The position numbers and the translations under genes were made by a program. The notes under the pieces are model-generated. The model saw only the letters and a program-made list of their open reading frames with translations. It was not told where the DNA came from and made no database searches. From IMG/VR virus record IMGVR_UViG_3300022413_000038, positions 1 to 24,504 of that record: a stretch of 24,504 nucleotides of DNA. One strand, written 5' to 3'. The stretch comes from a virus. Shown piece by piece: positions 1,203 through 16,153 of this stretch (its first letter is position 1; the number at the start of each line of letters is the position of its first letter).

Positions 1203-1231
1203 GACGGCACGGTGCGCAGATCAGGAAAATC

Positions 1232-1243
1232 CTGCAACGCACC
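1232..1243 (-). repeat. Late-region 12-bp element, copy 1
   Basis: On the minus strand this reads GGTGCGTTGCAG, 11 of 12 bases identical to the AGTGCGTTGCAG consensus. It lies 29 bp upstream of the tail tubular protein A start, directly after a terminator-like hairpin. One of five copies; see the finding for the comparison. Confidence 0.7.
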
Positions 1244-1270
1244 AAAGAAAAGCCCCGGCGAACCGGGGCT
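1241..1270 (-). terminator. Rho-independent terminator inside the late operon
   Basis: On the minus strand AGCCCCGG, a TTCG tetraloop and CCGGGGCT form a perfect 8-bp stem (1270-1251), followed by TTTTCTTTGG. A UUCG loop on a GC-rich stem with a U-rich tail is a classical intrinsic terminator. It sits between the stop of the 71-residue gene (1296) and the start of tail tubular protein A (1202). It probably sets a lower transcription level for tail genes, or is read through. Confidence 0.7.
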
Positions 1271-1295
1271 GCAATCGCAAGTCAGGGAGGAGACC

Positions 1296-1511
1296 TCAGC
1301 CGGACGTCTCGGCGTCCTTCTTGGCCGGTTCGGTTTTCTTCGCGGCGGGCTTCTTCGCCTCGCCTTCAGCCTCGCCTTCAGCCTCAACGGCAACGGGCGA
1401 CTGCGAGGACCATTCTTTCGGATGCGCCTTCAGCGCGCGGCGCGCGTCCACGGCGTCCATCGTCGCCGGTTCGCCAGTATCGCGATTGTAGATGGTGACT
1501 TGTCTCGGCAT
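1296..1511 (-). CDS. Small Ala/Lys/Glu-rich phage protein, unknown function
   Basis: A 71-residue protein opening MPRQVTIYNRDTGEPATM, with a low-complexity C-terminal half (repeated EGEAEGEAKKPAAKKTEPAKK) that looks disordered and charged. The N-terminal 35 residues could be a small folded strand-rich unit. The ATG at 1511 is preceded by AAGGACAAG, a good ribosome binding site. It sits between the capsid cement gene and the tail adaptor, where small head-completion or decoration proteins are often found. No family is recognised. A terminator follows it. Confidence 0.6.
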   Translation of the reverse strand: MPRQVTIYNRDTGEPATMDAVDARRALKAHPKEWSSQSPVAVEAEGEAEGEAKKPAAKKTEPAKKDAETSG

Positions 1512-1540
1512 CTTGTCCTTCTCCGATCAATCGTTTCCGA

Positions 1541-1972
1541 TCAGTATTTGACGACTGCCCAGGCCGTGAAGTCGATCGACGGCGAAGTGCCGCCAACGTC
1601 GACATAACAGCGGATATATTTGTAGGGCTGATCATCCTGTTCGGTCGGGAACGGCAGCTCGTACCGGCCGATCGTCGAATCCTGCGCGCCACCCTTGCGG
1701 GCGGCCGTCGCGCCGAGGTTCAGCATCGCGAGGTTCTCGATACCCGAGGCAAAGCCGGAATCGTTGGAGCCCTGCACGATGATGTTGTACTCCTCATCGG
1801 CGTTCGCGATATCGATCGCCGTGACGTCGATCAGCATCACCATTTCGGCCCGGCCGGCGCCGACGTCCTTGATGACGTTGGCCGCGGCAACCTGCGTCAC
1901 CCCGTCAGCGGAGATCGCGCCCGCATCCTTGAAGTGAAGTTCCTTGTCGGGCGTGTAGGTTCTCTGGCCCAT
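1541..1972 (-). CDS. Capsid cement/decoration protein (Bbp16-like)
   Basis: A 143-residue protein, mostly predicted beta, with DAGAISADGVTQVAAANVIKDVG near the N-terminus, IIVQGSNDSGFASG in the middle and YKYIRCYVDVGGTSPSIDFTAWAV at the C-terminus. This layout matches Bbp16-family capsid cement proteins of Bordetella phage BPP-1 and relatives ('NVIDLG...', 'Q.SDD..F', 'RYLRL.Y.V.G'). It directly follows the major capsid gene, as in BPP-1. The start at 1972 has AGGGGATTGAAAC upstream, a strong ribosome binding site. Expected to coat the capsid exterior. The family call is from pattern memory, not a search. Confidence 0.62.
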   Translation of the reverse strand: MGQRTYTPDKELHFKDAGAISADGVTQVAAANVIKDVGAGRAEMVMLIDVTAIDIANADEEYNIIVQGSNDSGFASGIENLAMLNLGATAARKGGAQDSTIGRYELPFPTEQDDQPYKYIRCYVDVGGTSPSIDFTAWAVVKY

Positions 1973-2009
1973 GTTTCAATCCCCTTCGTTCAGTGTCTCA
2001 GGCTGCCGC

Positions 2010-2945
2010 TTACTTGACGAAGGCGGCGTCGGTGATCGAGGTCAGCCGCGTCATGCAGAACGGGTGCTCGTCGACAAGGCCCACGTCCCAGGCAAAGTGC
2101 GTCCGGTAGGTGATGCCGTTTTCCAGCAAGCCCTTGTCATCGAAGTCCATCGCCCGGATTTGGATGGCGAAGACGCCATCGTCGCCGAAGCTGACAATGA
2201 AGATCGACGCGGTGACGGCGGCGCCGCCGCCCTGGCCGACTTCGTTGTACGGCAGGATGACGCCGTGCTTGTCGCGCGGATAGCCCCACAGGATCGGCAG
2301 ACCGGCGTAGGACATCTTCACCCCGCCGACCTGATCCCAGGTCTGGATGACGAAGCCGGAAAGCGTCGTGTCGCGCGCCGCCTGGATGAACCGCGGCTGC
2401 ATGTCGCGCGAGGCGATGATGTGCGACGGCTGGTATGTGTTCTTGATGGCGTTGTCGAGATTGTAGAGGGACAATGCCGCGCCGCCGGAGGCGGTCGAAT
2501 TGTGAAGCAGCCGCTCGCCGGTGGCGCGCTGTTTCAGGCCGTTGAATTCCTTGACGTTCGTGGTGTTGTCGCCGGCCAGGAACGTATCGGTCCACAGCTT
2601 GCCGGCCGAGGCCATTGCCAGCCGCTCCTGCTTGGCGCGGCGGCTCTGGCCGTGACGGTCGACGATCGCGCGGTCGACGTCGAGGTCGTGATCGAGGATG
2701 AACGAGCTTTCCTGGAACGGCGAGATCGTGCCTTCGCCCGACGTGCCAGCCTCGTTGATGGCGCGGAAACCGAGCACCGGCAGTTCTTCCTCGCGATACC
2801 CCTCGTAAACGCCGGAGCCGCCAACGCCCTCGAACCGCAATGCGGAAAAGATATCCGAGGATGCCGCAAAGGTCTCGACAAGCGGTCGCTCGATCGAGTC
2901 CTTCTCAAGCCCCTTGGCGTATTCAGGAAGCGTCATCGTGTCCAT
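2010..2945 (-). CDS. Major capsid protein (HK97-fold, Bbp17/podovirus type)
   Basis: A 311-residue protein opening MDTMTLPEYAKGLEKDSIERPLVETF, then SSDIFSALRFEGVGG, LPVLGFRAINEAG, and a long central region with IDDLIA-type helices (LYNLDNAIKNTYQPSHIIASRDM). This is the usual pattern of podovirus major capsid proteins ('T..E.AK......R..iieTF.e.s.il..lpf..i.g'). Length matches the family. It follows the scaffold by 11 bp and has AGGGGATTGAATT upstream of the ATG at 2945, the same ribosome binding site as the cement gene. This fits high and matched expression of the two virion proteins. Confidence 0.85.
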   Translation of the reverse strand: MDTMTLPEYAKGLEKDSIERPLVETFAASSDIFSALRFEGVGGSGVYEGYREEELPVLGFRAINEAGTSGEGTISPFQESSFILDHDLDVDRAIVDRHGQSRRAKQERLAMASAGKLWTDTFLAGDNTTNVKEFNGLKQRATGERLLHNSTASGGAALSLYNLDNAIKNTYQPSHIIASRDMQPRFIQAARDTTLSGFVIQTWDQVGGVKMSYAGLPILWGYPRDKHGVILPYNEVGQGGGAAVTASIFIVSFGDDGVFAIQIRAMDFDDKGLLENGITYRTHFAWDVGLVDEHPFCMTRLTSITDAAFVK

Positions 2946-2956
2946 AATTCAATCCC

Positions 2957-3700
2957 CTATGCCGCTTGTCGCTTCTTCGCCTGGATCTCGCGGGCGCGCA
3001 CCAGGCGCTGATCCGGGCTCATTGCCTCATATTCCTCGTCGGAAATCTCGTCCGTCTTCAAATCGCGGTCGCCGCCCGACGGCTTCGGCGTCCCGCCCTT
3101 GGCGACAGCCATGATCTTTTCGAACGCCTCGACCTGCTTCTGCGTGAACAGTGTTCCGAGAAGCGCGCCGGCATGTTCCGTGCCGACCGTCGCCGCAAGC
3201 CAGGTCTCCACCGCGTCGATCCGCGCGTCGGCCTTGCTGCCGAGCGCCTTCTTTTCTTCCGCCAACCGCTCGTTCAGCTTTTCCGCTTCCGCCGCCTGGA
3301 ATTTGTGATCCAGTTCCAGGAGCTGTTCGAACTGGGCCTGCGACAGATCGTTCTCGTGTGCGAATTCGCGCGCCACGGGCAGGCGCGGGTCATCCGCGTT
3401 GATCTCCACCGGGTTGTCCGGATCGGGCTGCTCGAAGCTGTCCGGCAGCTTCAGTTCGTAGCCGTCGGCATTCTCCGGCACCTGGGCGGCGTGCGAATCG
3501 CGCTCCGCCTTGAAAGCGGCGAGCTCGTTGCGCTGACCGAGAAGGCCTTCGACGTCGACGCCGGTCTCTTCATTCCAGAAATCATCCGGCAGATTGTCCG
3601 GCCGCTGCGGCGTATTATTCTCGCCCTGCTGGCCCTCGGCGCCGGCTCCCTGGTCGCCTTGCTGCTGCTGGTTCTGTTCCTGGCCCGGTTCGTCCGACAT
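2957..3700 (-). CDS. Capsid scaffolding protein
   Basis: A 247-residue, very acidic protein. Residues 1-35 are Gln/Gly/Glu-rich and likely disordered (QEQNQQQQGDQGAGAEGQQ). The middle has PENADGYELKLPDSFE, a motif common in phage scaffolds, followed by a long charged helix (about residues 125-165, EAEKLNERLAEEKKALGSKADAR). The C-terminus is basic (AREIQAKKRQAA), as in scaffolds that bind the capsid with a short positive helix. Position between portal and major capsid genes supports the role. The start at 3700 overlaps 86 bp of the upstream gene in another frame. The ribosome binding site is weak (AGGG). Confidence 0.8.
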   Translation of the reverse strand: MSDEPGQEQNQQQQGDQGAGAEGQQGENNTPQRPDNLPDDFWNEETGVDVEGLLGQRNELAAFKAERDSHAAQVPENADGYELKLPDSFEQPDPDNPVEINADDPRLPVAREFAHENDLSQAQFEQLLELDHKFQAAEAEKLNERLAEEKKALGSKADARIDAVETWLAATVGTEHAGALLGTLFTQKQVEAFEKIMAVAKGGTPKPSGGDRDLKTDEISDEEYEAMSPDQRLVRAREIQAKKRQAA

Positions 3701-3911
3701 CCACTGACCCTGTGTTTTCCGCCAAATTGATCAAAATCAGCGCAAGATTGCGCCGCCCTCGAAACTCCTGCAACGCACTGACTTCCGGACCCTCCTTTTC
3801 GTAGAGGATCGCGTGCAGCGATTCCTGCATCAGGCGGCCTTCAGGCGTGGCGAATGCCCGCCGCCAGGCGTTCTGGACGTCTTCGTCCTTGAGAGAGAGT
3901 TTCGGTTTCAT
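3615..3911 (-). CDS. Bbp19-like small phage protein
   Basis: A 98-residue protein. Residues 13-55 carry AWRRAFATPEGRLMQESLHA and then GRRNLALILINLAE. This matches the Bbp19 family pattern ('vf.TPEGR.vL..Ll...' then 'GRRnvgL.Li'), known as a small gene next to the portal in BPP-1-like phages; its role is unclear. The ATG at 3911 overlaps the portal stop as ATGA. The last ~28 residues (from about GRTGPGTEP) come from DNA that also codes the scaffold N-terminus and look like run-on rather than a conserved domain. One copy of the repeated late element lies inside the coding region. Confidence 0.65.
   Translation of the reverse strand: MKPKLSLKDEDVQNAWRRAFATPEGRLMQESLHAILYEKEGPEVSALQEFRGRRNLALILINLAENTGSVDVGRTGPGTEPAAARRPGSRRRGPAGRE
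3768..3779 (-). repeat. Late-region 12-bp element, copy 2
   Basis: Minus-strand AGTGCGTTGCAG, a perfect copy, preceded by AAGTC as in copy 5. It lies inside the Bbp19-like gene, where it codes Ser-Ala-Leu-Gln, 67 bp upstream of the scaffold start. Confidence 0.75.
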
Positions 3912-5464
3912 TGTTCCCCGCCAGGCTGTTCGGCGCCCGCGGTCGCGGCGCCCTGCAGAATGCCGGCGACCAGCTGCTCGACGCGGTTCGGATCGCGAAG
4001 TTCGACAATCTTGTCGCCGAGTTTCTTCTTGATGTTCTCGATCGTGCGCAGCTCGTCGATCGCCGCCGCGCTGGTCTCCGGCATCAGACCCTTGGCGATC
4101 TCAAGCAGCCGGACCGCGATCTGGACGTCGAGCTGTTCCTGCGCCTGCGCCGCCGGATTGTTCGGCACCAGCGCGATCGCCTTGCCATCGCTCTCGATGT
4201 TGAATTCGTCGAGACGCCCGCGCTTCTCAAGCAGATATTCATAGCGCTTGAAGACGGCCGCCGGCCCTTCGTCGAAAAACTTCTTGCCTGGCGTGCCGAT
4301 GCGGCGCTGCGACAGCACCATTTCGTCGACCCACTGCGTTGCCGTCGGCGGGGTGTCGCCGCGCTGCTGCGGGTAATCGGCATAGAACTGGCGCCGGATC
4401 CTGCGCTCGATATCGGCCAGCGTGTAGAACCCGATATCGGCATCGCCGCTGAAATAGAGCGGTACGAAGTCCCGGCCGGAACCGGGGCGCATCGGATAGG
4501 CCATGCCCGATTCGATGCCCTGCTCGAAGTTCACCACGCCGTCGTCGGGATAGCCGATCGATGGATTGACCGACTGGTCGGCCCGGTCCTGCGTTGCCAT
4601 CGTCAGCGCGTCGAGCACCCGCAGGTTCGGCAGCGAGGCGATCGCCGGGCCGTTCCCCCAGGGCTGCAGCGCGTGCGGCAGGAAGCGCATGACAATATGC
4701 GGGCATGCTGCCTCGCCTTCCAACCGGTCACGCCAGACAACTTCGTCGCATACGGTGATCTCGGCCTGCCAGATGAAATCCTCAGTCACGTTCCAGTCGC
4801 GCCAGTGGCCCCATGCGACCGGGTAGAATTCGTTGGCCTTGGCGCCGATCTTCTTGCGAATTTTCTCCGGAAGATCGATGCCCTTCAGGATGTCGGGGAT
4901 CTGCCGACCTCGAAGATGGCGGACAATGAACCGGTCATCGACGCGGCCGTCAGGCCCGAGATTGATCTCCGTTTCGCGGATCGGATGATGTTGCACATGG
5001 ATCGGATCGAAGCCGTTTGGCTCGTCGACCCACAGCGATACGGTGCCGACGGACAGGTCGGGAACGAGCGCCGTGCCGATCTCGGAATTGAAGTTCGACG
5101 CCCGGATGCCGCGGAAGATCGCGTCGTCGCGCTTTCTCACATCTTCCTCGACCGCCTTGAACCGCTCGTCCGGCACGCCCTCGCCCGCGCCGCTTTTCGC
5201 CCAGTTCAGATGCTCCGGGAAGAACCCGTTGATGACCTCGGTGGCAAAATCGACCGACACTTCCGCGCCGATATCGGTCGCCAGCGTGTCGGCGTCCTTT
5301 TCGACCGTCTGTGAAGGTTTCGTCTGCGAAAGCACCTGACGCGCCAGGCGCGGGTTGGTGAAGAAATAGGCTTCCTGCAGATCGAGCTGGATATCCGACT
5401 TGTGGGCGCGGGCCGCCTGCAACCGCTCCTTGAAGCCGTCATGGTCCTTCTTGTCGAAGGCCAT
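3908..5464 (-). CDS. Portal / head-to-tail connector protein (T7-like family)
   Basis: A 518-residue protein of the podovirus head-tail connector family, the dodecameric ring that forms the DNA entry vertex. Visible marks are an N-terminal helical region, EVSVDFATEVINGFFPEHLNW, SLWVDEPNG, the long PVAWGHWRDWNV strand region, RFLPHALQPWGNGPAIASLPNLRVLD and a C-terminal TPPTATQWVDEMVLSQRRIG stretch. The pattern 'W..G.g.a..alp.i..ln' is typical. The size (usually 500-560) fits. The start at 5464 overlaps the preceding small gene by one base (TGATG), and the stop overlaps the Bbp19-like gene by four. It sits after the terminase, as expected. Confidence 0.9.
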   Translation of the reverse strand: MAFDKKDHDGFKERLQAARAHKSDIQLDLQEAYFFTNPRLARQVLSQTKPSQTVEKDADTLATDIGAEVSVDFATEVINGFFPEHLNWAKSGAGEGVPDERFKAVEEDVRKRDDAIFRGIRASNFNSEIGTALVPDLSVGTVSLWVDEPNGFDPIHVQHHPIRETEINLGPDGRVDDRFIVRHLRGRQIPDILKGIDLPEKIRKKIGAKANEFYPVAWGHWRDWNVTEDFIWQAEITVCDEVVWRDRLEGEAACPHIVMRFLPHALQPWGNGPAIASLPNLRVLDALTMATQDRADQSVNPSIGYPDDGVVNFEQGIESGMAYPMRPGSGRDFVPLYFSGDADIGFYTLADIERRIRRQFYADYPQQRGDTPPTATQWVDEMVLSQRRIGTPGKKFFDEGPAAVFKRYEYLLEKRGRLDEFNIESDGKAIALVPNNPAAQAQEQLDVQIAVRLLEIAKGLMPETSAAAIDELRTIENIKKKLGDKIVELRDPNRVEQLVAGILQGAATAGAEQPGGEQ

Positions 5465-5649
5465 CAGCGTTTCTTGCCTGACAGCGGCGAACCCAGGGAC
5501 GTGCCGGCGAGCGCGTTACGGGCGCCGAACTGGCGCACCAGTGCATCGGTCAGCGACGACACACGGTCCTGTATCGATTCCTGCTTGTCCGCCCGGGCCG
5601 CCTGGCGCTGGCGCTTCACTTCCGGATCCGGCTTCGGCGCGCTGACCAT
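5464..5649 (-). CDS. Small phage protein upstream of portal, unknown function
   Basis: A 61-residue basic, helical protein. It opens MVSAPKPDPEVKRQRQAARAD and ends in SLTDALVRQFGARNALAGTS followed by a Lys/Arg tail. Small proteins of this pattern ('PKPDP.......AA..DK..S....L...T..L...YG.R..LAG') often lie just before the portal in alphaproteobacterial podoviruses. I do not know a function. The ATG at 5649 lies within the 3' end of the preceding frame (134-bp overlap), and the stop forms TGATG with the portal start, so it is probably translationally coupled to the portal. Confidence 0.65.
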   Translation of the reverse strand: MVSAPKPDPEVKRQRQAARADKQESIQDRVSSLTDALVRQFGARNALAGTSLGSPLSGKKR

Positions 5650-6091
5650 GAATATCCCCGCTCACAATGGTTCCACCGTGGGCCAGACAATCGCGGAAAA
5701 ACGCATCGGGACGCAACGCACTGGATTTGACGCCGGTCAGATGCGCCACCTGCGGCACGCACCAGGCGCCCAATTGCAGCCGGCGCTCGAAATGCGCGAA
5801 CGGCGGAATGACGGAGACGATCGTCGACCTGAAGGAAAGCGCTCCGATCAGATCGTCGGCCGCCTCGTCGGGAACGACCAGCACCTGGGATTGCGCATAT
5901 GTCCAGGAATAGAACAGCCAGCCATCGACCGATTCCACGTAGCCGAAGGCCGAGACATGCCGGAACCGCTGCCGCCAGGTCAGCGCCCGCGCCAGCCGGA
6001 GCGGGCTGTCATGATGGAAGACGACGAACCACCGGAGCGGCCGGCACATCACTTCCGGCAGGGGCGGCGCCAGCGATTCAACCCGCAGCAT
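5516..6091 (-). CDS. Conserved phage protein between terminase and portal, unknown function
   Basis: A 191-residue frame. Residues ~18-140 look like a folded domain: RWFVVFHHDSPLRLAR, RQRFRHVSAFGYVE, GWLFYSWTYAQSQVLVVP and RLQLGAWCVPQVAHLTG. Proteins with a '.vF.HD....LA..l...FRH' opening recur at this position in related phages. The last ~45 residues overlap the following 61-residue gene in another frame and are Gly/Pro/Ala-rich, so they are probably run-on after loss of an earlier stop. The start at 6091 overlaps the large terminase stop by 14 bp; Met15 (6049) is an alternative. Function not known. A copy of the repeated late element lies inside it. Confidence 0.6.
   Translation of the reverse strand: MLRVESLAPPLPEVMCRPLRWFVVFHHDSPLRLARALTWRQRFRHVSAFGYVESVDGWLFYSWTYAQSQVLVVPDEAADDLIGALSFRSTIVSVIPPFAHFERRLQLGAWCVPQVAHLTGVKSSALRPDAFFRDCLAHGGTIVSGDIHGQRAEAGSGSEAPAPGGPGGQAGIDTGPCVVADRCTGAPVRRP
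5711..5722 (-). repeat. Late-region 12-bp element, copy 3 (diverged)
   Basis: Minus-strand AGTGCGTTGCGT, matching the first ten of twelve consensus bases. It codes Ser-Ala-Leu-Arg in the gene at 5516-6091 and lies 61 bp upstream of the small gene that precedes the portal. Confidence 0.55.
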
Positions 6092-7631
6092 AGCGGCGCA
6101 GGCCCTTTTTCTTTTTCGCGTACCGCACCGGCTGCGAGCGTCCGCCGACCTCGCCCCGCGTCATCGAACGGCCCTCGCCGGCGCCGAGCATCATGTACTG
6201 CAGCGCATCGCAGACGTCGCTGTACTTGTCCTTGACCGGCTTCGGCTCGCTCATGGCCAGGTTCGCCGTCTTCTGCATGTGGTACCCGCCGGCCATACCC
6301 ACCTTCAGCGTCCGGCAGGCCCAGGGATCCAGCAGGAACCGCGGCAAGCCGTTCGACATGCCGCGCAGCACGAAATCGACGGCATCGATGCGGGTCTGGA
6401 TATTGTTCTGCTTGACCGGCGCCGGATGCACGATCATGCCGTGCGAGCGGTAGACCTCGTAGGCTGTGGTCTCGTCCGTCTGCACGCCGTCCTGGCCCTT
6501 CGGATCGCCGTAAATCTCGATCTCGAACCCGTCATAGTGCTGCGTCAACACCCGCTGCACCTTCGGCGCGAATTCCGAGGCGCCCTCCGCCCGGCCGATC
6601 AGCTCGCGCTGGATCGACCAGCGGCCGTTGATCTCCTGGCCGAACACCGCCGCCGGGTTGCGCCCGAAGTCGAGCCCGACGAACACCTTCCAGCCCGGTA
6701 TCGGCTTCAGCGCCGCCTTCGCCACATGGGTTTCGAGGCTGAAGTTCTTCCAGACCGGATCGCCCTCGACGTAGATCGTGATCCGGTTCATCAGCCGCGA
6801 ATCGATCCACTGCTTCGACTTGCCGAACCGCTTTTCCTGGTAGAAGCCCGGTTTCAGCCAGATCACGTTTTCCGCGTCCGGGTTGACGTCGTAGCCGGCG
6901 ATCGAGCCGTCGGCCGCCTTCTGCTCGATCAGCGCTGGCGGTTGCACAAAATAGGACCAGTTCGGCGGCTGACGGAACGCCTGTCGTTCGTCCTCGCTCC
7001 AATGGTCGGGGAACGGCACCTCGCCCATCATCAGCGGCACCCAGTGATCCTCGTTCGGCGCGTTCATGTCGCCGAGCACGCCGTCCCATCGGCAGCCGCC
7101 GTCTTTCACCGCAGGGAAACGCCCGGTCCGCGATTCCGCCTCGTCGACCAGCGCCTTGTCGATGAACTCCAGCTCGTTGAACCAGAACCCCGTCACCTCG
7201 AGAGAACGCATCTTGCGCACGTCATCGGGCGAATCGAGCGCAATGAACCAGACTTCCATCTCAACGTCGGCGATCTTGACGATATGCCGGAACGGCCGGT
7301 CCCAGTAGAAGCGGCCGTAAACGTCCTCGGGGAACCAGTCGAGCCAGGTCTTGACCGTCGTGCCGCGCAAATCCGGGAACGTGTTGCGCACCACGACCCA
7401 CCTGGTGCGTCGAACCCCGTCGGGCCCGGGATGCTGCGCCATCGCCAGCTTGAAGATCTTCATGCAGCAGGCCGCCGACGTCCCGGACCCGATCGGCCCC
7501 CGGATCAGCGAAACGTGGCTCTCGTCGGCAAGGAAATGCGCCAGAACGCGCCCGGCCGGCCGGTAGATCTTCTGCCCGGTCTTGGCGTCAGTCTCGATCT
7601 TTGGAGGGTCGGCAAGGGCGATTTCGCTCAT
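6078..7631 (-). CDS. terL: Terminase large subunit (DNA-packaging ATPase/nuclease)
   Basis: A 517-residue packaging motor protein. The ATPase part has a P-loop at residues 45-52 (GPIGSGTS) and Walker B within GFWFNELEFI (about 150-160). The C-terminal RNase H-like nuclease shows VGLDFGRNPAA (about 323), IYGDPKGQDG (about 376) and YSDVCDALQYMM (about 480), with acidic residues as expected for metal binding. The P-loop is unusual: the lysine normally before the last Ser/Thr is Thr51 (ACG where AAG would give Lys). Arg44 just before the loop might substitute. No strong ribosome binding site precedes the ATG at 7631. A repeated late element lies 28 bp upstream. Confidence 0.92.
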   Translation of the reverse strand: MSEIALADPPKIETDAKTGQKIYRPAGRVLAHFLADESHVSLIRGPIGSGTSAACCMKIFKLAMAQHPGPDGVRRTRWVVVRNTFPDLRGTTVKTWLDWFPEDVYGRFYWDRPFRHIVKIADVEMEVWFIALDSPDDVRKMRSLEVTGFWFNELEFIDKALVDEAESRTGRFPAVKDGGCRWDGVLGDMNAPNEDHWVPLMMGEVPFPDHWSEDERQAFRQPPNWSYFVQPPALIEQKAADGSIAGYDVNPDAENVIWLKPGFYQEKRFGKSKQWIDSRLMNRITIYVEGDPVWKNFSLETHVAKAALKPIPGWKVFVGLDFGRNPAAVFGQEINGRWSIQRELIGRAEGASEFAPKVQRVLTQHYDGFEIEIYGDPKGQDGVQTDETTAYEVYRSHGMIVHPAPVKQNNIQTRIDAVDFVLRGMSNGLPRFLLDPWACRTLKVGMAGGYHMQKTANLAMSEPKPVKDKYSDVCDALQYMMLGAGEGRSMTRGEVGGRSQPVRYAKKKKGLRRYAAG

Positions 7632-7659
7632 GCCCGCACAATGCCGGACCAGTCAGCTG

Positions 7660-7671
7660 CTGCAACGCACT
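7660..7671 (-). repeat. Late-region 12-bp element, copy 4
   Basis: Perfect minus-strand copy AGTGCGTTGCAG, 28 bp upstream of the large terminase start and outside any coding region. Copy 1 has nearly the same spacing to its gene. Confidence 0.75.
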
Positions 7672-7680
7672 AGGTTGAGC

Positions 7681-7810
7681 CGGTCAATCGTTAACAAATG
7701 ATTAATGTTAATCTGTGGTTAACCATAACGGTGTACAAGTGATATCAGATTTTGATCAGGTATTTAGGATTATCCTGTGGTTAAGTGTGCTATTCGGCGG
7801 TCAATCGGTT
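7681..7810. promoter_or_regulatory. AT-rich palindrome cluster upstream of large terminase
   Basis: This stretch is far more AT-rich than its surroundings and holds several short perfect palindromes: GATTAA-tg-TTAATC (7700-7713), GGTTAACC (7717-7724), TGATATCA (7740-7747), TGATCA (7753-7758) and AGGAT-t-ATCCT (7766-7776). It also has two direct repeats: CTGTGGTTAA at 7713 and 7775, and CGGTCAATCG at 7681 and 7798. It could hold operators, a packaging (pac/cos) site or part of an origin. No coding frame of note is present. The role is inference; the repeats are seen directly. Confidence 0.45.
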
Positions 7811-7848
7811 GTTTCGACAATTATCTGTGCAAAGCTGCTGAAATGAAA

Positions 7849-7873
7849 GGGCGAGTCTGCTGACAGACCGCCC
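7849..7873 (-). terminator. Hairpin, possible terminator of minus-strand transcripts
   Basis: GGGCG-a-GTCTG, loop CTGA, CAGAC-CGCCC gives a 10-bp stem with one bulged A. On the minus strand it is followed by TTTCATTT, a moderately U-rich tail. It could end transcripts coming from the upstream small genes before the large terminase. On the plus strand no T-run follows. Confidence 0.4.
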
Positions 7874-7889
7874 CTCCATCTAACGTCGC

Positions 7890-7978
7890 CACAATGTGGG
7901 GCCTGGCAGGTTCGCCGGATGGGACCCTAGTCAAGTACCGCCGGTCGGTTCGAGTCCGACCAGGTCCACCGCATTGTG
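7890..7978 (+). ncRNA. Structured element with tRNA-like acceptor and T-arm, possible noncoding RNA or tRNA relic
   Basis: On the plus strand GGGCCTG (7899-7905) pairs over 7 bp with CAGGTCC (7961-7967), and GTCGG (7944-7948), loop TTCGAGT, CCGAC (7956-7960) is a perfect tRNA T-arm abutting the acceptor strand. ACC follows at 7968. An outer stem CACAATG/CATTGTG (7890-7896 with 7972-7978) extends the helix. Two wobble pairs (G7901-U7965, U7897-G7971) fit RNA on this strand only. The 38 bases between acceptor and T-arm give no convincing D-arm, nor a 5-bp anticodon stem with a 7-base loop. I therefore call it tRNA-like, not a working tRNA. It lies in the gap between small-terminase-side genes and the large terminase, opposite to the late genes. 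Confidence 0.5.
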
Positions 7979-8043
7979 ACAACGCAAGTGAACAATGTCT
8001 GTATTAGGCACTTTTGTGAAGGCCGATCGTAAACATTACATTA

Positions 8044-8073
8044 ATTATACATTAATTTTTCGCCAATGGTGAA
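8044..8073 (-). promoter_or_regulatory. Possible minus-strand promoter in terminase intergenic region
   Basis: On the minus strand TTCACC, an 18-bp spacer and a perfect TATAAT (8044-8049) lie just downstream of the 88-residue gene. The region has TACATTAAT as an 11-bp-spaced direct repeat (8037-8045 and 8048-8056). It would transcribe toward the hairpin at 7849 and the large terminase. The -35 box matches only 4 of 6 bases. Confidence 0.35.
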
Positions 8074-8076
8074 CAA

Positions 8077-8343
8077 TTACTCGTCCCCGCACCAAGCCCT
8101 TTCCAGCTGGTGAGATCTCAGACGAAGCCCACCGATCGTCTTCGTCACGTCCTCGACGCCTTCCATTCCTGTCGTCACCGAGCCGTCGGCATGGTTGACC
8201 ACAGTCGAGATCCCGCACATCTCACCTGCCTCGGCCATGATCAGCAAATTACGGCAATATTCGACAACCGCCGCGTTCGCCCGCCCAGGGGTCGCGATTG
8301 GCTGCCCGTGCATCCCGATGACATTCGACGTTTCGTCGCTCAT
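8077..8343 (-). CDS. Small conserved phage protein, unknown function
   Basis: An 88-residue protein opening MSDETSNVIGMHGQPI, with a helical centre (NAAVVEYCRNLLIMAEAGEMCGI) followed by a strand-like stretch (STVVNHADGSVTTGMEG). Small phage and rhizobial proteins with 'vve.Le.ll..A..Gei.g.......dG' have this shape. I do not know a function. The ATG at 8343 overlaps the preceding gene's stop as ATGA. It sits between small and large terminase genes. Confidence 0.6.
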   Translation of the reverse strand: MSDETSNVIGMHGQPIATPGRANAAVVEYCRNLLIMAEAGEMCGISTVVNHADGSVTTGMEGVEDVTKTIGGLRLRSHQLERAWCGDE

Positions 8344-8693
8344 GTAGGCCTCGATCCATTTTCCGGCGCCGGCGGTCTCCCAGTGGCTTCATGGGTGAAA
8401 ATATTTCCAGCCCGCAAGTTCCAGCAGCCCGTCGGCGCTATGGACACGACAAAACTCGGCGCACATTCGCCGTCGGGCTGTCGTATCTCGACAATCAATT
8501 GAGCTTGGTTCGTCTCATGCGGCCAATAATACGCCGGCATGTCGACCGCCAATACGTCCTCCGAAATCGCCTCAACAGTGTCACTATAGAGCGACAGAAC
8601 AGCCTTCACCCGCTCCTGCATCGAGTTAACCACTCGGACCTCAACGCGCCTCGTCGGGAGATCCTCAAGTGAAATATTTTCTAGCAGTGACAT
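8340..8693 (-). CDS. Small hypothetical phage protein
   Basis: A 117-residue protein of mixed composition. It has an N-terminal charged part (ISLEDLPTRRVEVRVVNSMQERVKAVLS) and a beta-rich middle (QAQLIVEIRQPDGE, APSFVVSIAPTGCWNLRAG). No family recognised. The ATG at 8693 has AGAGGGA eight bases upstream, a strong ribosome binding site, and its stop overlaps the next gene by four bases, so the two are a translational pair. The 115 bp before it, up to the small terminase stop, hold no gene. Confidence 0.6.
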   Translation of the reverse strand: MSLLENISLEDLPTRRVEVRVVNSMQERVKAVLSLYSDTVEAISEDVLAVDMPAYYWPHETNQAQLIVEIRQPDGECAPSFVVSIAPTGCWNLRAGNIFTHEATGRPPAPENGSRPT

Positions 8694-8808
8694 TCGATGG
8701 TCCCTCTACATTGTGGGGTACGAATTGAGAGGACGCGCCCGGTTTTTCGGGGCCGGGGTACCTCTGCTGCGCTGCCGAACAAGGCCGGGGTGGGGGTGGT
8801 TGCATGCG

Positions 8809-9303
8809 TCACTCTGCAACCTCGTCCGCCTCGCTCAAAGGCTTGGCGTCATGTTCATTCAGGCTTCCTATCTGACCGTCGATCTCGTACCCGCTCAAGT
8901 CGATGACATAGCCAGGCGTTGAGACGTTCACGCCCACACCGACGTTGACAGTCACTCCGCTTTTCTCGTTGCCGTCCAGGTACTTGGCCGCATCCAACCG
9001 CACCTTGTCGCTCTCGCTCTTGTCCCTGAGCTCTATGCCCGTGTGCAGGTTCCGGGCTCGCTCTGAGGTCCGTAACACCTGCAATTGCTCGTTATAGTGC
9101 TGGACCACGGCTGGTTGCCGGAAAGCTTGATACATCGAGTGATCGGTCAACCCGACGCGCTGCGCTGCGGTTTTGCGGTCGCATCCTTCGAAGACCATGC
9201 ATTCGATTGCGGCTTTGACCTTCCGGCTCAGGCGGCTGCCTGGTTGCCGTGCTGGTTTCCGTTTGCGCCCTGGTGCAGCGATTGGGGCTGTTCGTGCCGT
9301 CAT
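8809..9303 (-). CDS. terS: Terminase small subunit-like DNA-binding protein
   Basis: This 164-residue protein starts at ATG 9303 (MTARTAPIAAPGRKRKPARQ). A TTG at 9360 could extend it by 19 residues, but the extra part is poorly protein-like. Residues ~28-65 hold a helix-turn-helix (AAIECMVFEGCDRKTAAQRVGLTDHSMYQAFRQPAV), followed by a helical oligomerisation region (LQVLRTSERARNLHTGIELRDKSESDKVRLDAAKYLDG) and a flexible acidic tail. This is the layout of small terminases, which select packaged DNA. Its place as the first late gene supports this. No strong ribosome binding site is seen. Confidence 0.65.
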   Translation of the reverse strand: MTARTAPIAAPGRKRKPARQPGSRLSRKVKAAIECMVFEGCDRKTAAQRVGLTDHSMYQAFRQPAVVQHYNEQLQVLRTSERARNLHTGIELRDKSESDKVRLDAAKYLDGNEKSGVTVNVGVGVNVSTPGYVIDLSGYEIDGQIGSLNEHDAKPLSEADEVAE

Positions 9304-9365
9304 GTGGGCTTCATCTGCTGATCTCGGGGAGGCTGCGCGCGAGAGTGCGCCGGGCGTCAAATGGT

Positions 9366-9377
9366 CTGCAACGCACT
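9366..9377 (-). repeat. Late-region 12-bp element, copy 5
   Basis: Perfect minus-strand AGTGCGTTGCAG, preceded by AAGTC as in copy 2. It lies 62 bp upstream of the small terminase ATG and is therefore at the head of the late operon. Confidence 0.75.
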
Positions 9378-10710: not shown

Positions 10711-11015
10711 CCGTCTATTGCCAGAAACCCGGCTGCGATCGATCCTGGCCGCGTGATCCTGCTCTTGAAGTAGCCTGCCCCAGTTGCGGGGCGGGCATCG
10801 GCCAGAAATGCAAACGGCCGTCAGGCCATACAGCCTGGCAAGGCTGGGTGCATGGCGAGCGTGACATCATCGCCGACCGGCAAGGACAGTATGGCGTCTG
10901 CCCGTCCGGCCGATGCGGATTGAAGACAGAACCGACCGACCAGGGCAATCAATACGTCATCCCGGGCTGCGAGAAGGACAAGACCAAGGGCCCGGATCAA
11001 ATGGATCTGTTCTGA
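10707..11015 (+). CDS. Phage zinc-binding protein with CPSCG motif
   Basis: A 102-residue protein from GTG 10707 (VTVYCQKPGCDRSW), with GAGGGAGGC upstream and a GTGA overlap with the preceding gene. It has two Cys clusters: CQKPGC near the N-terminus, and CPSCGAGIGQKCKRPSGHTAWQGWVHGERD at about residues 22-52. The latter fits the 'CP.CGA..G..C..PSG......H..R' zinc-binding module widespread in phage proteins. More Cys follow (CPSGRCG, PGCEKD). Likely a small DNA- or RNA-binding protein; the target is unknown. An earlier in-frame ATG (10587) is rejected because it reads through the preceding gene in another frame. Confidence 0.65.
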   Translation: MTVYCQKPGCDRSWPRDPALEVACPSCGAGIGQKCKRPSGHTAWQGWVHGERDIIADRQGQYGVCPSGRCGLKTEPTDQGNQYVIPGCEKDKTKGPDQMDLF

Positions 11016-11068
11016 CCAGGGCGCGCGGCGAGAACCCGCGCGCTGACTTGACAAAGGAGCAATTTGCA

Positions 11069-11449
11069 ATGACCCATGACGCCGCCACAGCAGAGATCGT
11101 CACCATGCCTGAAACGCCGGCGCCGGATCCGTCAGCACCCGAACACGAGCGTGCCAGGTGGTGGCGCGAGAACATCGTGAAGCTGTCACGTCGGGAGCTC
11201 GCCGAGCGGATCGGCGTTTCGGAATCCACCATCACGAACTTCGAGCTCGGTCACGTGCGCGAGACCGGCAAGCCGATCGACGAAAACGCCATGCTGCGCT
11301 ACCGGCTGGCCTGCGCGGCCATCACCCTGGGCGTCGAGTTTGATTGGCTGACGTGTGCGCTCGAGCCTCGCACACCCGTCAGGATCAGCGTCGAAGGACC
11401 TTCAGAAAACGTTGAGGTTTCGGAGATCAAGTTGCCGCCCAAATACTAG
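11069..11449 (+). CDS. HTH (XRE-like) transcriptional regulator
   Basis: A 126-residue protein from ATG 11069, preceded by AAAGGAGC. Residues ~28-65 carry a helix-turn-helix: RWWRENIVKLSRRELAERIGVSESTITNFELGHVRETGKP, followed by a helical stretch (YRLACAAITLGVEFDW) and a short C-terminal domain. It is a likely DNA-binding regulator at the end of the plus-strand operon, possibly of the divergent late promoter region. A perfect 8-bp hairpin (GCGCGCGG/CCGCGCGC, 11021-11043) precedes it. It converges with the membrane-protein gene at 11453. Confidence 0.7.
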   Translation: MTHDAATAEIVTMPETPAPDPSAPEHERARWWRENIVKLSRRELAERIGVSESTITNFELGHVRETGKPIDENAMLRYRLACAAITLGVEFDWLTCALEPRTPVRISVEGPSENVEVSEIKLPPKY

Positions 11450-12135: not shown

Positions 12136-12519
12136 TCACGCAGCATTCCTCCGTTTCACGTCCTCGATCAATCGCTGTCGTGCCGCGCTCTCGCTGATCA
12201 GCGGGTTCATGCCGCCGCCTTCCAGCGGTAGCGCCAGCTGCGCAGGATCCGGCTTGTGCAGACGGCGGATCGACTTGACGGGAACCAGCACGATCGCCAG
12301 GCCGAGCGCGCCGAGCCAAAGCGGCAGCGACACCGGGCCGATGAACCGGCCGGAATTCTCGTGGCTGAAGTTTTCCAGTTTCGCCGTGTACCCAAGCTGC
12401 AGCCCCGATCGATCATCCAATTCGTTCATCGTCAAGCCGAGCCTCTGCCGGCGCCTGCGAAGGGCAAGCGCCAGCTGCTCGTAATCCGTTACAAGGGTGG
12501 CGTGCTCACCGATCAGCAT
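12136..12519 (-). CDS. Small HTH-containing phage protein
   Basis: A 127-residue protein. Residues ~12-50 form an HTH (YEQLALALRRRRQRLGLTMNELDDRSGLQLGYTAKLEN). GPVSLPLWLGALGLAIVLVPVKSIRRL follows, a segment seen in rhizobial proteins with an HTH plus 'lG..SL...LgALGL.l.lv'. It could be a regulator. The hydrophobic stretch is more likely part of the HTH-linked fold than a membrane helix, though this is uncertain. The start at 12519 lies 14 bp inside the preceding gene, so translation is probably coupled. Confidence 0.6.
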   Translation of the reverse strand: MLIGEHATLVTDYEQLALALRRRRQRLGLTMNELDDRSGLQLGYTAKLENFSHENSGRFIGPVSLPLWLGALGLAIVLVPVKSIRRLHKPDPAQLALPLEGGGMNPLISESAARQRLIEDVKRRNAA

Positions 12520-13123: not shown

Positions 13124-13778
13124 CGTTCCATCGTCCTTGATTGAGCCAGGTTATCGCTTGAGCAACGTAGGTCGTGCCGATCTTGCCATCGGCCTCCAGG
13201 CCGGTGCGGTATGCCGCGGCGGCGGCGACGATCCGTGCCGGGTCAACGCCGCTGTTGAGCACGGCAACGAATTTCTTCAGCGCCGGAGCACGCGGATTCG
13301 AACCGGCCCGCCTCGGGTATTCGGACCAGAAGGCCTCGAAGTGTGGAAGGGCGTTCGATTTGGTCCAGTGAATCCCGTCTTTTTTGCCTATAGGTTTTTT
13401 CTTATCTGTATCTGTATCTGTATCTGTATCTGGGGCCGTTTCAGTAACGTTTCTGGAACGTTGCCGATGGCGTTTCACTCGCTCAGTAGAAGTGTCTGAT
13501 TTATATTGCCGTTTCTTCCATGAAACGATTTGAAACGTTTCACCAACCGTTACGATCAGACCGGCCTCAACAAGAGTGTGAAACGCCGATGAAACGGTCT
13601 GTTTTGTTTCACGAAACGCGAATGAAACGTCATCGATCGTTCCAATATTGCCGTCCTTTGAATTGAGATTGCAGGCAAGATACAGGGCATTGTGCCAAGC
13701 CTTGAACGCAGCATCCGGCAACCGCTGGATTTTCGGATCGTTCAGTGTCTCACCATAGGCCCGGAACCATTGGTTCAT
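13014..13778 (-). CDS. Phage replication initiator (O-like) with embedded repeats
   Basis: A 254-residue protein from ATG 13778; the longer frame start at 13925 is rejected. Residues 1-90 form a winged-helix initiator domain (MNQWFRAYGETLNDPKIQRL, KAWHNALYLACNLN, VSFAFRETKQTVSSAFHTLVEAGLI, FQIVSWKKRQ). A basic linker (ERVKRHRQR) and an acidic Asp-Thr repeat (about 117-125) separate a C-terminal domain (HFEAFWSEYPRRAG, IVAAAAAYRTGLE, YVAQAITWLNQGRW). This matches lambda O-type/rhizobial phage initiators that bind repeats in their own gene. The coding DNA holds eleven GAAACG/CGTTTC hexamers. The start overlaps the GcrA stop as ATGA. Confidence 0.75.
   Translation of the reverse strand: MNQWFRAYGETLNDPKIQRLPDAAFKAWHNALYLACNLNSKDGNIGTIDDVSFAFRETKQTVSSAFHTLVEAGLIVTVGETFQIVSWKKRQYKSDTSTERVKRHRQRSRNVTETAPDTDTDTDTDKKKPIGKKDGIHWTKSNALPHFEAFWSEYPRRAGSNPRAPALKKFVAVLNSGVDPARIVAAAAAYRTGLEADGKIGTTYVAQAITWLNQGRWNDDYSPGEISGRSDQRGREGPAHPFVAGMADALSECD
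13376..13629. other. Candidate phage replication origin: hexamer iterons plus AT-rich tract
   Basis: GAAACG or its complement CGTTTC occurs eleven times in 193 bp: CGTTTC at 13437, 13448, 13471, 13510 and 13536; GAAACG at 13522, 13532, 13580, 13591, 13613 and 13624. One pair forms the palindrome GAAACGTTTC (13532-13541). To the left lies a T-rich strand (13378-13404) and 4.8 copies of the hexamer ATCTGT (13404-13432). The combination of initiator-gene iterons next to an easily melted tract resembles lambda-type origins. The repeats are seen; origin function is inferred. Confidence 0.6.
13404..13432 (-). repeat. Tandem 6-bp repeat (4.8 copies) coding Asp-Thr
   Basis: The plus-strand unit ATCTGT is repeated four full times plus five bases. 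On the minus strand it codes the alternating Asp-Thr linker of the replication initiator. Copy-number change would alter linker length without a frameshift. It is too short and lacks the spacer structure of a CRISPR. Confidence 0.8.
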
Positions 13779-14257
13779 GCGGCACGCTCCTGCCTGATCC
13801 AGCCGGAGCCTTCGCTGACCGAAACTGCAGCGTGTGCCTCGCAATAGGGCTGACGGTTGCCCTTCATCACCGGCTGACCGCAGCAGACGGCATTTTTCAT
13901 GTCGTCGTTGATCATCCAGGCGCACTGCTTGTCCCTGCGCGTTAGGAACGGGATGCCGATCCCATGCAGCGGCTCGATCTCCGTGTGCGCCGGCTCAGCC
14001 TTGGCTTTTGGCTTCGTCTTGGCGCGTTTCATCCTGATCGGATGCGATCGCCCGCCTGTTCCGCCCTGCCCATCCCGGTTGACGGCAATGCGCCCTCCGC
14101 CGCCGTTCAGCTGGATCCTGTAACGACTGGCATAGCCGATCACCATGTTCCGCGTTGCCCCGTCGATCTGCATTGCGATCTGGCCTGCCGACAAGCCGGC
14201 CGATGCACCCTGCTCAATAATTTCGATACGCCGCTCCGGCGTCAGGTCACTCCACAT
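13775..14257 (-). CDS. gcrA-like: GcrA family cell-cycle regulator (phage-encoded)
   Basis: A 160-residue protein opening MWSDLTPERRIEIIEQGASAGLSAGQIAMQI, then ATRNMVIGYASRYRI. This is the GcrA DNA-binding signature ('W...rve.L..LW..G.SA.qIA..LG.vTRNAVIGK..R'). A basic linker (KRAKTKPKAKAEP) leads to a C-terminal Cys/His module (QCAWMINDD, AVCCGQPVMKGNRQPYCEAH), as in host GcrA, which binds sigma-70. Host GcrA activates cell-cycle genes at methylated GANTC sites; a phage copy may steer host or phage transcription. The stop overlaps the initiator start. The start overlaps the upstream gene by 11 bp. Confidence 0.82.
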   Translation of the reverse strand: MWSDLTPERRIEIIEQGASAGLSAGQIAMQIDGATRNMVIGYASRYRIQLNGGGGRIAVNRDGQGGTGGRSHPIRMKRAKTKPKAKAEPAHTEIEPLHGIGIPFLTRRDKQCAWMINDDMKNAVCCGQPVMKGNRQPYCEAHAAVSVSEGSGWIRQERAA

Positions 14258-15076: not shown

Positions 15077-15506
15077 CACGGAAGCCCCGCGGCCAGCTGC
15101 TGTCTGACAGAGCGTGCACTTCGACATGCAGCGCCGCGCGGGAGCCGAACAGTTTTGCAAAGTGTACAACCGCCACCCGGGCGTCGTCAGTCCATACGAT
15201 CTGATTGAGACCGTCCTTGACGATCTTCTGGATGTTATCGCCGTCGGGCTTTGTCGCCTTGAAATGGCTGTCGACTTCCACCCGCCGTCTCTTGGTCATC
15301 GACTTTGGCCAGGGGTAAACGGCGATCAGCCGCAACTCGACAGCATGGTCGACAGGATCGCGATCGCCCATGGCATCCGCTGCCAGGGAACGAATGACGG
15401 CCTTATAATCGCGCTGCCGCTTGGGCGTGAACCGGGGCGTGCCCTTGCCGCCGCCGGTCCGCGCCCAGGGCACGATATTGCCCGGCACCTGAAACGAGAC
15501 GATCAT
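15069..15506 (-). CDS. rusA: RusA family Holliday junction resolvase
   Basis: A 145-residue protein opening MIVSFQVPGNIVPWARTGGG, with the RusA signature KPDGDNIQKIVKDGLNQIVWTDDARV at about 86-111. The acidic residues (Asp88, 90, 98, 107, 108) match the metal-binding set of the family. Length is typical (about 120-150). It cuts branched recombination or replication intermediates, probably before packaging. ATGA overlap with the upstream gene and 8-bp overlap with the methyltransferase place it firmly in the operon. Confidence 0.88.
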   Translation of the reverse strand: MIVSFQVPGNIVPWARTGGGKGTPRFTPKRQRDYKAVIRSLAADAMGDRDPVDHAVELRLIAVYPWPKSMTKRRRVEVDSHFKATKPDGDNIQKIVKDGLNQIVWTDDARVAVVHFAKLFGSRAALHVEVHALSDSSWPRGFRDA

Positions 15507-16153
15507 GCAGGTTCCGTTTCGGGCTCCGACGTTTCATCGAACTCGGCGATCGGGGCCGCCTCGGCGTGATCAGCTGGGGATTGATCAGCTTGGTCTCCGT
15601 TATCCGGGGCGGCCCCTTCTTCTCCGGCGGTGTCGCCTGCGCCGGAGGAAGCGGATTTCTCCGCGTTCTTTTTTTCCATCGCCGATTTCAGGTCCTCACC
15701 CATCATCCGCTGGCCTTCGTGCCAGCCGCGCATCCAGGCCTGCCCGGCTTCCGTCGATTCCTCGTGCGGCGGCTTGGGATCCCTGGCCAGCAGACCGGCG
15801 GTCCGCCCGGCCGCGAATGCCGCATCGGTGAGTGGCGTGCGGTCAGGCTCGCTGAACAGGTCAATCTGCTGGCCGACCGGCAGGCCCATCCAGGCGGCAA
15901 TCTGCATCCACTCCTTCATCTCGTCGACAATGATCGAATCGTCCTCGATATCGTTCATGCGCATCGCTTCGTCGATCAGCGCCAGCTTGAAGCCGTCGGC
16001 CTTCGCCAGCTTGCGCAGCCGGTTCAGTTCCTCGCGCTCGCGCTGCACCGCAGCCGCTTGCGCCACGATCGGGTTGAGATGGTGGAAGAACAGCGCCTCG
16101 CGCTCCTCCGGCGTCAGTTCTGTTGTGAAATTCTCGCCGCTTTCGTCCGTCAT
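15503..16153 (-). CDS. Conserved phage protein with RMF-like middle segment
   Basis: A 216-residue protein. Residues ~10-70 are helical (LTPEEREALFFHHLNPI, REELNRLRKLAKADGFKLALIDEAMRMND). Residues ~105-150 contain AAFAAGRTAGLLARDPKPP then STEAGQAWMRGWHEGQ, a repeat-like pair resembling the 'A...G..Ag..g......P......a..W..GW..G' layout of ribosome modulation factor-like phage proteins. The C-terminal ~50 residues are low-complexity acidic. The start at 16153 follows AGGAGACCAGCA. Function not known; an effect on ribosomes or DNA is speculation. Confidence 0.62.
   Translation of the reverse strand: MTDESGENFTTELTPEEREALFFHHLNPIVAQAAAVQREREELNRLRKLAKADGFKLALIDEAMRMNDIEDDSIIVDEMKEWMQIAAWMGLPVGQQIDLFSEPDRTPLTDAAFAAGRTAGLLARDPKPPHEESTEAGQAWMRGWHEGQRMMGEDLKSAMEKKNAEKSASSGAGDTAGEEGAAPDNGDQADQSPADHAEAAPIAEFDETSEPETEPA

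Follow-up and report, generated by a model that had tools for sequence, protein, structure and literature searches.

A repeated 12-bp element as the probable upstream half of late promoters in a family of apparently temperate phages

The window analysed here, a 24.5 kb virus fragment from IMG/VR (24,504 nucleotides in all), carries a late operon on its minus strand, in the order small terminase, large terminase, portal, scaffold-position gene, major capsid and tail protein. The phage looks temperate, with a conserved repressor-like gene at 17.7-18.4 kb that is present in its relatives too. Along the operon a 12-bp element recurs in a single orientation, and the question it raises is what such an element is for. 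An initial annotation had offered a phage-specific late promoter dependent on an additional late factor, or else an antitermination or RNA-processing site; its proposals did not extend to a -10 half, leaderless geometry or a candidate factor. Comparative evidence supports the promoter: with a probability of roughly 85%, the 12-mer would be the upstream half of a phage late promoter that is read by host RNA polymerase carrying the main sigma factor, with an XRE-type helix-turn-helix protein recruiting the polymerase. No prior description of the motif was found in the open-access literature.

The five copies already reported are all present on the minus strand: those at 9366, 7660 and 3768 are perfect, that at 1232 has one mismatch and that at 5711 has two. 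Also confirmed are the two classes of distance between the end of the element and the start codon, 28-29 bp (1232 and 7660) and 61-67 bp (3768, 5711 and 9366), the AAGTC common to the copies at 3768 and 9366, and the terminator at 1251-1270 just ahead of the copy at 1232. The further statement that the window holds no other copy is true of the 9-mer core, GTGCGTTGC, but not of the 12-mer, which at up to two mismatches also matches at 4333 and 21872 on the plus strand. At this tolerance the seven matches in the window are only mildly above chance, seven being reached in 2 of 100 shuffles. Of the core there are exactly five copies, none of them off the late strand, against an expectation of 0.33 for both strands together, and no such count was reached in 100 shuffles. 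A simple mismatch k-mer count missed the motif even where it was present, so a bipartite blind search was used instead, for 8-mers confined to the late strand with a -10 box downstream. The top word that it returned for the window was GTGCGTTG, found in 5/5 copies; five were reached in none of 300 Markov shuffles. The core count and the shuffles of the blind search rule out a chance repeat. Transposon or att repeats are likewise ruled out, the copies being short, in one orientation and syntenic. The elements, the -10 boxes predicted for them and the proposed activator gene are as follows.

9366..9377, minus strand: putative late promoter element (-35-like half) before the small terminase gene; exact 12-mer, with a syntenic copy in relatives.
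9342..9347, minus strand: predicted -10 box CACTCT of the small-terminase promoter, from the family profile; predicted start about 9335, leader about 33 nt to ATG 9303.
7660..7671, minus strand: putative late promoter element before the large terminase gene; exact 12-mer.
7638..7643, minus strand: predicted -10 box CATTGT, 6 nt before ATG 7631; predicted leaderless TerL mRNA.
5711..5722, minus strand: putative late promoter element within gene 5516-6091, where it is read as the codons AGT GCG TTG, with genes 5464-5649 and portal downstream; core exact, syntenic and codon-constrained in relatives.
5687..5692, minus strand: predicted -10 box GATTGT of the portal-side promoter; predicted start about 5680.
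3768..3779, minus strand: putative late promoter element within gene 3615-3911, where it is read as the codons AGT GCG TTG CAG, with the scaffold-position gene 2957-3700 downstream; exact 12-mer.
3745..3750, minus strand: predicted -10 box CAATCT; predicted start 3738, leader 38 nt to ATG 3700.
1232..1243, minus strand: putative late promoter element right after the terminator, before the tail protein gene 600-1202; 11 of 12 bases, core exact.
1209..1214, minus strand: predicted -10 box CACCGT, 6 nt before ATG 1202; predicted leaderless mRNA.
12136..12519, minus strand: gene for an XRE-type helix-turn-helix protein, the proposed late activator, on the basis of co-occurrence with element sets and a predicted XRE fold.

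A search with the portal protein identified ten viral contigs, one bacterial contig and the deposited Microcystis phage Mwe-JY08, with portals about 40-53% identical to that of the window; a capsid query found no viral contigs. A portal-alignment search added 72 loci, of which 69 were not used to define the pattern and serve as a held-out set. The element is conserved in relatives, and its places correspond: ahead of the small terminase, ahead of or near the large terminase, in the pre-portal gene, in the small gene preceding the scaffold-position gene, and immediately ahead of the tail protein. Relatives have extra copies before tail-end genes that lie beyond the window fragment.

The word itself differs between lineages, and it is altered in unison at all copies in a relative, giving TGTGCTTTGC, GTGCGGTGC, GTGCAGTGC or GTGCGTTGA. 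Ten relatives use TGTGCTTTGC at the syntenic places, while the word of Mwe-JY08 is CGTGCGTTGA, with seven copies and none on the other strand. Among the 69 held-out loci, whose copies are not fully independent as the phages are related, GTGC[GT]TTGC has 156 late-strand occurrences and 9 on the opposite strand, and GTGCGGTGC has 43 and 5; other central dinucleotides show no comparable late-strand excess in these loci. Confinement to one strand holds in 23 whole records as well (about 162 versus 14), and there the elements cluster in the late half. One locus, L009, has none of the known words, and alignment of its two coding copies yielded GGTGCAGTG, which has six late-strand copies and none on the opposite strand, one copy standing exactly before an ATG. 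No clear element is seen in the distant relatives L080, L089 and L016. The restriction to one strand and to late genes, and the coordinated change of the word, are established by sequence comparison. A single word per lineage, used at all sites and changed everywhere together, is the signature of a shared trans-acting reader. For L074 and L088 the blind search suggested two more dialects, GTGCGTCG and GGGCGTTG, again where copies would be expected. In the one host genome examined (4.5 Mb) the element is not enriched, with 47 matches against 50 for a reversed control, which rules out a host-wide motif.

The phage family is common in metagenomes and prophages, with one member among about 50,000 deposited phages. 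This only deposited member, Mwe-JY08 (PP395640.1), is labelled as infecting a cyanobacterium, and a relative with a named host is in Bradyrhizobium; the host label of Mwe-JY08 may deserve checking. The Bradyrhizobium relative is NZ_CP094518.1, a 46.6 kb plasmid of Bradyrhizobium sp. ISRA432 deposited as non-mobilizable. It carries the portal, the capsid, the XRE gene and an element set of seven copies on one strand, and is likely a phage-plasmid or circular prophage.

When all elements are aligned on their first base, a second conserved block appears downstream. In a set of 119 elements dereplicated by downstream sequence,.A...T is found at offset 29 in 62, compared with a mean of 4.8 at other offsets, and 89 of the 119 have [CGT]A...T within one base of that offset. 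The comparison thereby establishes a bipartite architecture, with a gap of about 17-19 nt between the element and a -10 box that is degenerate (consensus cAynnT, with A-11 and T-7). Transcription is predicted to start some 6 nt past the box; the six bases in between are C/G-rich and the predicted first transcribed base is often A. A-11 and T-7 are the -10 bases that sigma70-class factors read most strictly, and here A at -11 and T at -7 occur together at one offset. The element spans about -41 to -32 and would thus replace or overlap a -35 box. At the -35 position itself, where sigma70 promoters have a hexamer close to TTGACA, the GTGCKTTGC dialects have TTGCnn, which is absent from GTGCGGTGC and GTGCAGTGC. 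The -10 boxes have C in place of T at -12 and are weak, and a consensus scan recovered none of these promoters. We infer from this arrangement a promoter function and a reading of the -10 box by sigma70. A phage RNA polymerase would not be needed, because the -10 box carries the sigma70 hallmarks, and no gene for one is seen among the annotated genes of Mwe-JY08 or of the Bradyrhizobium plasmid. A sigma54 promoter is ruled out: its spacing is absent, and its required GG has no match upstream of TTGC in the window copies.

The position of the predicted start accounts for the distances to the start codons. Counting from the element's first base, the tail-gene ATG comes at 41-42 nt in 34 of 42 phages, and the -10 box precedes this ATG by six or seven bases. 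The predicted start falls exactly on the start codon at two genes of the window, the large terminase (ATG 7631) and the tail protein (ATG 1202); the mRNAs of both genes are therefore predicted to be leaderless, starting at the A of the ATG. In a related set, L061-L065, the tail ATG is 17 bases further down, the -10 box CATCGT holds its distance to the element and a GGGAGA Shine-Dalgarno sequence appears. The constant distance is thus that from the element to the predicted transcription start, not that from the element to the start codon. This fixed distance explains the two distance classes, the window copies of the longer class having predicted leaders of some 31-38 nt. In L004, L005 and L008, phages with the word GTGCTTTGC, the mRNA leader ahead of the large terminase contains a conserved CATCTCAAGCGATGGAG and a GGAG ribosome site, and CCATC/GATGG can pair in some phages. 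This leader has no counterpart in the window, where the terminase gene looks leaderless.

Two of the window copies, 3768 and 5711, lie within genes. Ala is always GCT and Leu always TTG in the coding copies of the GTGCTTTGC phages (33/33 and 30/30 phages), a test that is partly circular, as the matches were picked by flanking bases, a selection that fixes some bases but not the two variable ones. Elsewhere in those genes CTG or CTC is the usual Leu codon, and the codons of neighbouring conserved residues vary. The comparison thus shows a constraint acting at the DNA level inside coding sequence. A shared coding motif (SALQ/CALR) is ruled out as the cause, since the same word stands at non-coding places and synonymous positions are fixed. 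Promoter-like elements are maintained within coding sequence.

The candidate for the reader is encoded at 12136-12519, at the end of the early region and just before the late genes. It is the only gene at the end of the early region that is conserved in all relatives covering that region, where the protein is often fused to an N-terminal HTH_17 domain. Wherever a record with an element set extends over this region, the protein is found, the Bradyrhizobium plasmid included. Among 42 loci with enough upstream sequence, the element is present in 41 and the XRE gene in 39; two of the three loci missing the gene have it elsewhere in the record, and the third has neither gene nor element. L080 encodes the XRE protein despite its having no clear element. 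The profile of 12136-12519 matches 434 repressor/Cro and HipB, and its predicted structure matches HipB and the restriction controller protein C.BclI with a TM-score to the target of 0.66-0.86, at Foldseek E-values above 0.01; Pfam helix-turn-helix matches fall below the cut-off. A code linking the recognition helix to the dialects was sought, and no simple one-to-one correspondence was found. The assignment as late activator therefore rests on co-occurrence and position, from which we propose that the XRE protein binds the element and recruits polymerase.

If the element is a promoter half, another phage protein might activate it. A second XRE-type protein, ORF 10913-11449 on the plus strand between the early and late genes, is common in the GTGCTTTGC phages, and the window encodes a GcrA-like protein at 13775-14257; GcrA is a known sigma70 partner in Alphaproteobacteria, which counts in its favour. 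The family of ORF 10913-11449 is, however, found only in the window and the GTGCTTTGC-dialect relatives and in no other dialect, and a GcrA homologue occurs in only two of the relatives compared, making either protein an unlikely activator. The element could also be the -35 region of a promoter that a host alternative sigma factor reads unaided by any phage factor. Its position at -41 to -32 would suit sigma region 4, and some dialects have TTG at -35. This explanation is nonetheless improbable, as related phages differ by coordinated changes of the word, the single host genome examined shows no enrichment, and the -10 box has the A-11/T-7 of the housekeeping sigma class.

That the element acts in RNA instead, marking a site of antitermination or processing within a single long late transcript, would agree with its presence on the transcribed strand only, with the copy right after a terminator and with the copies inside genes. 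Against it speak the constant distances to an A-11/T-7 box and to leaderless ATGs, and a signal that needs no structure; no Rfam match (antiterminator, riboswitch or ribozyme) was found in the window, and a structured RNA is ruled out on that ground. The RNA options of the initial annotation are thus disfavoured and we regard them as very improbable. Equally slight is the chance that the copies are stoperators, repressor operators that silence the late genes in the lysogen. The stoperators of mycobacteriophage L5 are asymmetric, in one orientation and near gene starts, and so are the copies here; whole records, however, show the copies concentrated in the late half, and they sit at a constant -35 position relative to a -10 box. 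Repression by the same protein in the lysogen may occur in addition.

The window has several further features. GANTC, the site that CcrM methylates in Alphaproteobacteria, shows a strong depletion across the window (43 versus 135 expected). Control of the promoters by GANTC and GcrA is ruled out by this depletion and by the lack of any GANTC inside the promoters, the nearest being about 40 bp upstream of the copy at 3768. Two adjoining TTAA-N7-TTAA boxes at 7691-7722 on the plus strand closely precede the large-terminase promoter, and 8041-8055 holds a third, where 0.01 would be expected; such boxes are of the type bound by CtrA, an alphaproteobacterial cell-cycle regulator. In the spacer before the terminase promoter, 7905-7985 on the plus strand resembles a tRNA T-arm and 3' end. 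Neither ARAGORN nor Rfam made a call there, and it is possibly a tRNA relic or an attachment site. A ribosome modulation factor (RMF) domain is found within a longer phage protein at 15503-16153 on the minus strand.

According to the preferred reading, a late promoter with a phage activator, the early genes would make the XRE protein, which would bind the element and recruit host sigma70 polymerase to the weak -10 boxes. Five to ten late promoters would then fire together, and only after early expression; the five in the window would feed the small terminase, the large terminase, the pre-portal gene, the scaffold-position gene and the tail protein. A more detailed version is tentative, and we think it possible rather than probable: an XRE monomer would bind the asymmetric site on the -35 and take over -35 recognition from sigma region 4, steering host polymerase to private late promoters, with at least five mutually exclusive dialects isolating related phages and some mRNAs leaderless by design. 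The promoter reading would provide a readable code of late-gene control for a little-studied temperate phage family, with transcription starts predicted to the base and one small protein named as the likely switch. About five naturally matched pairs of site and protein could allow the specificity of an XRE activator to be decoded. It is also suggested that a temperate phage uses leaderless mRNAs for its terminase and tail genes.

The element is real and falls in the known class of activator-dependent phage late promoters, as a variant of it. In P2 (Ogr) and Mu (Mor/C), several late promoters with poor core elements are activated by a small early phage DNA-binding protein and read by host sigma70 polymerase. 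The window phage resembles them in having several weak-core late promoters, a candidate small early phage protein and a probable dependence on host sigma70 polymerase. It differs in that its site is asymmetric and on the -35 itself, its mRNAs often appear leaderless and two of its promoters are inside genes. The candidate factor is moreover of XRE type, not a zinc finger (Ogr) or of Mor/C type: neither the zinc-binding cysteine motif of Ogr/Delta nor a dyad site near -55 is found, and the XRE protein of the window has no cysteines. At the middle promoters of phage T4, a MotA box near -30 replaces the -35 before a sigma70 -10 box, and AsiA is also needed. The likeness lies in a phage site standing in place of the -35 ahead of a sigma70 -10; sequence, protein fold and timing are unrelated, and the need for AsiA is T4's own. 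In the Caulobacter gene transfer agent, GafY and GafZ turn on a prophage-like late cluster in an alphaproteobacterium through direct contact between activator and RpoD; there GafY, along with IHF, occupies a site far upstream at the cluster promoter, and GafZ acts as an antiterminator (PMC11150451). The resemblance, the use of the housekeeping sigma for a late cluster, is one of mechanism, and the window phage differs in having many promoters with the site at -35. As to the protein, RtrA/B, CdxA/B and TgrL are small XRE regulators of Caulobacter and phage phiCbK, with a site that is described as one strong and one weak half-site (PMC10688885). The XRE protein of the window is likened to them by type, as a small single-domain XRE protein of alphaproteobacteria or their phages, and not by sequence relation. 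These regulators act mainly as repressors of host genes (PMC10688885), whereas the protein described here is proposed to be a late activator.
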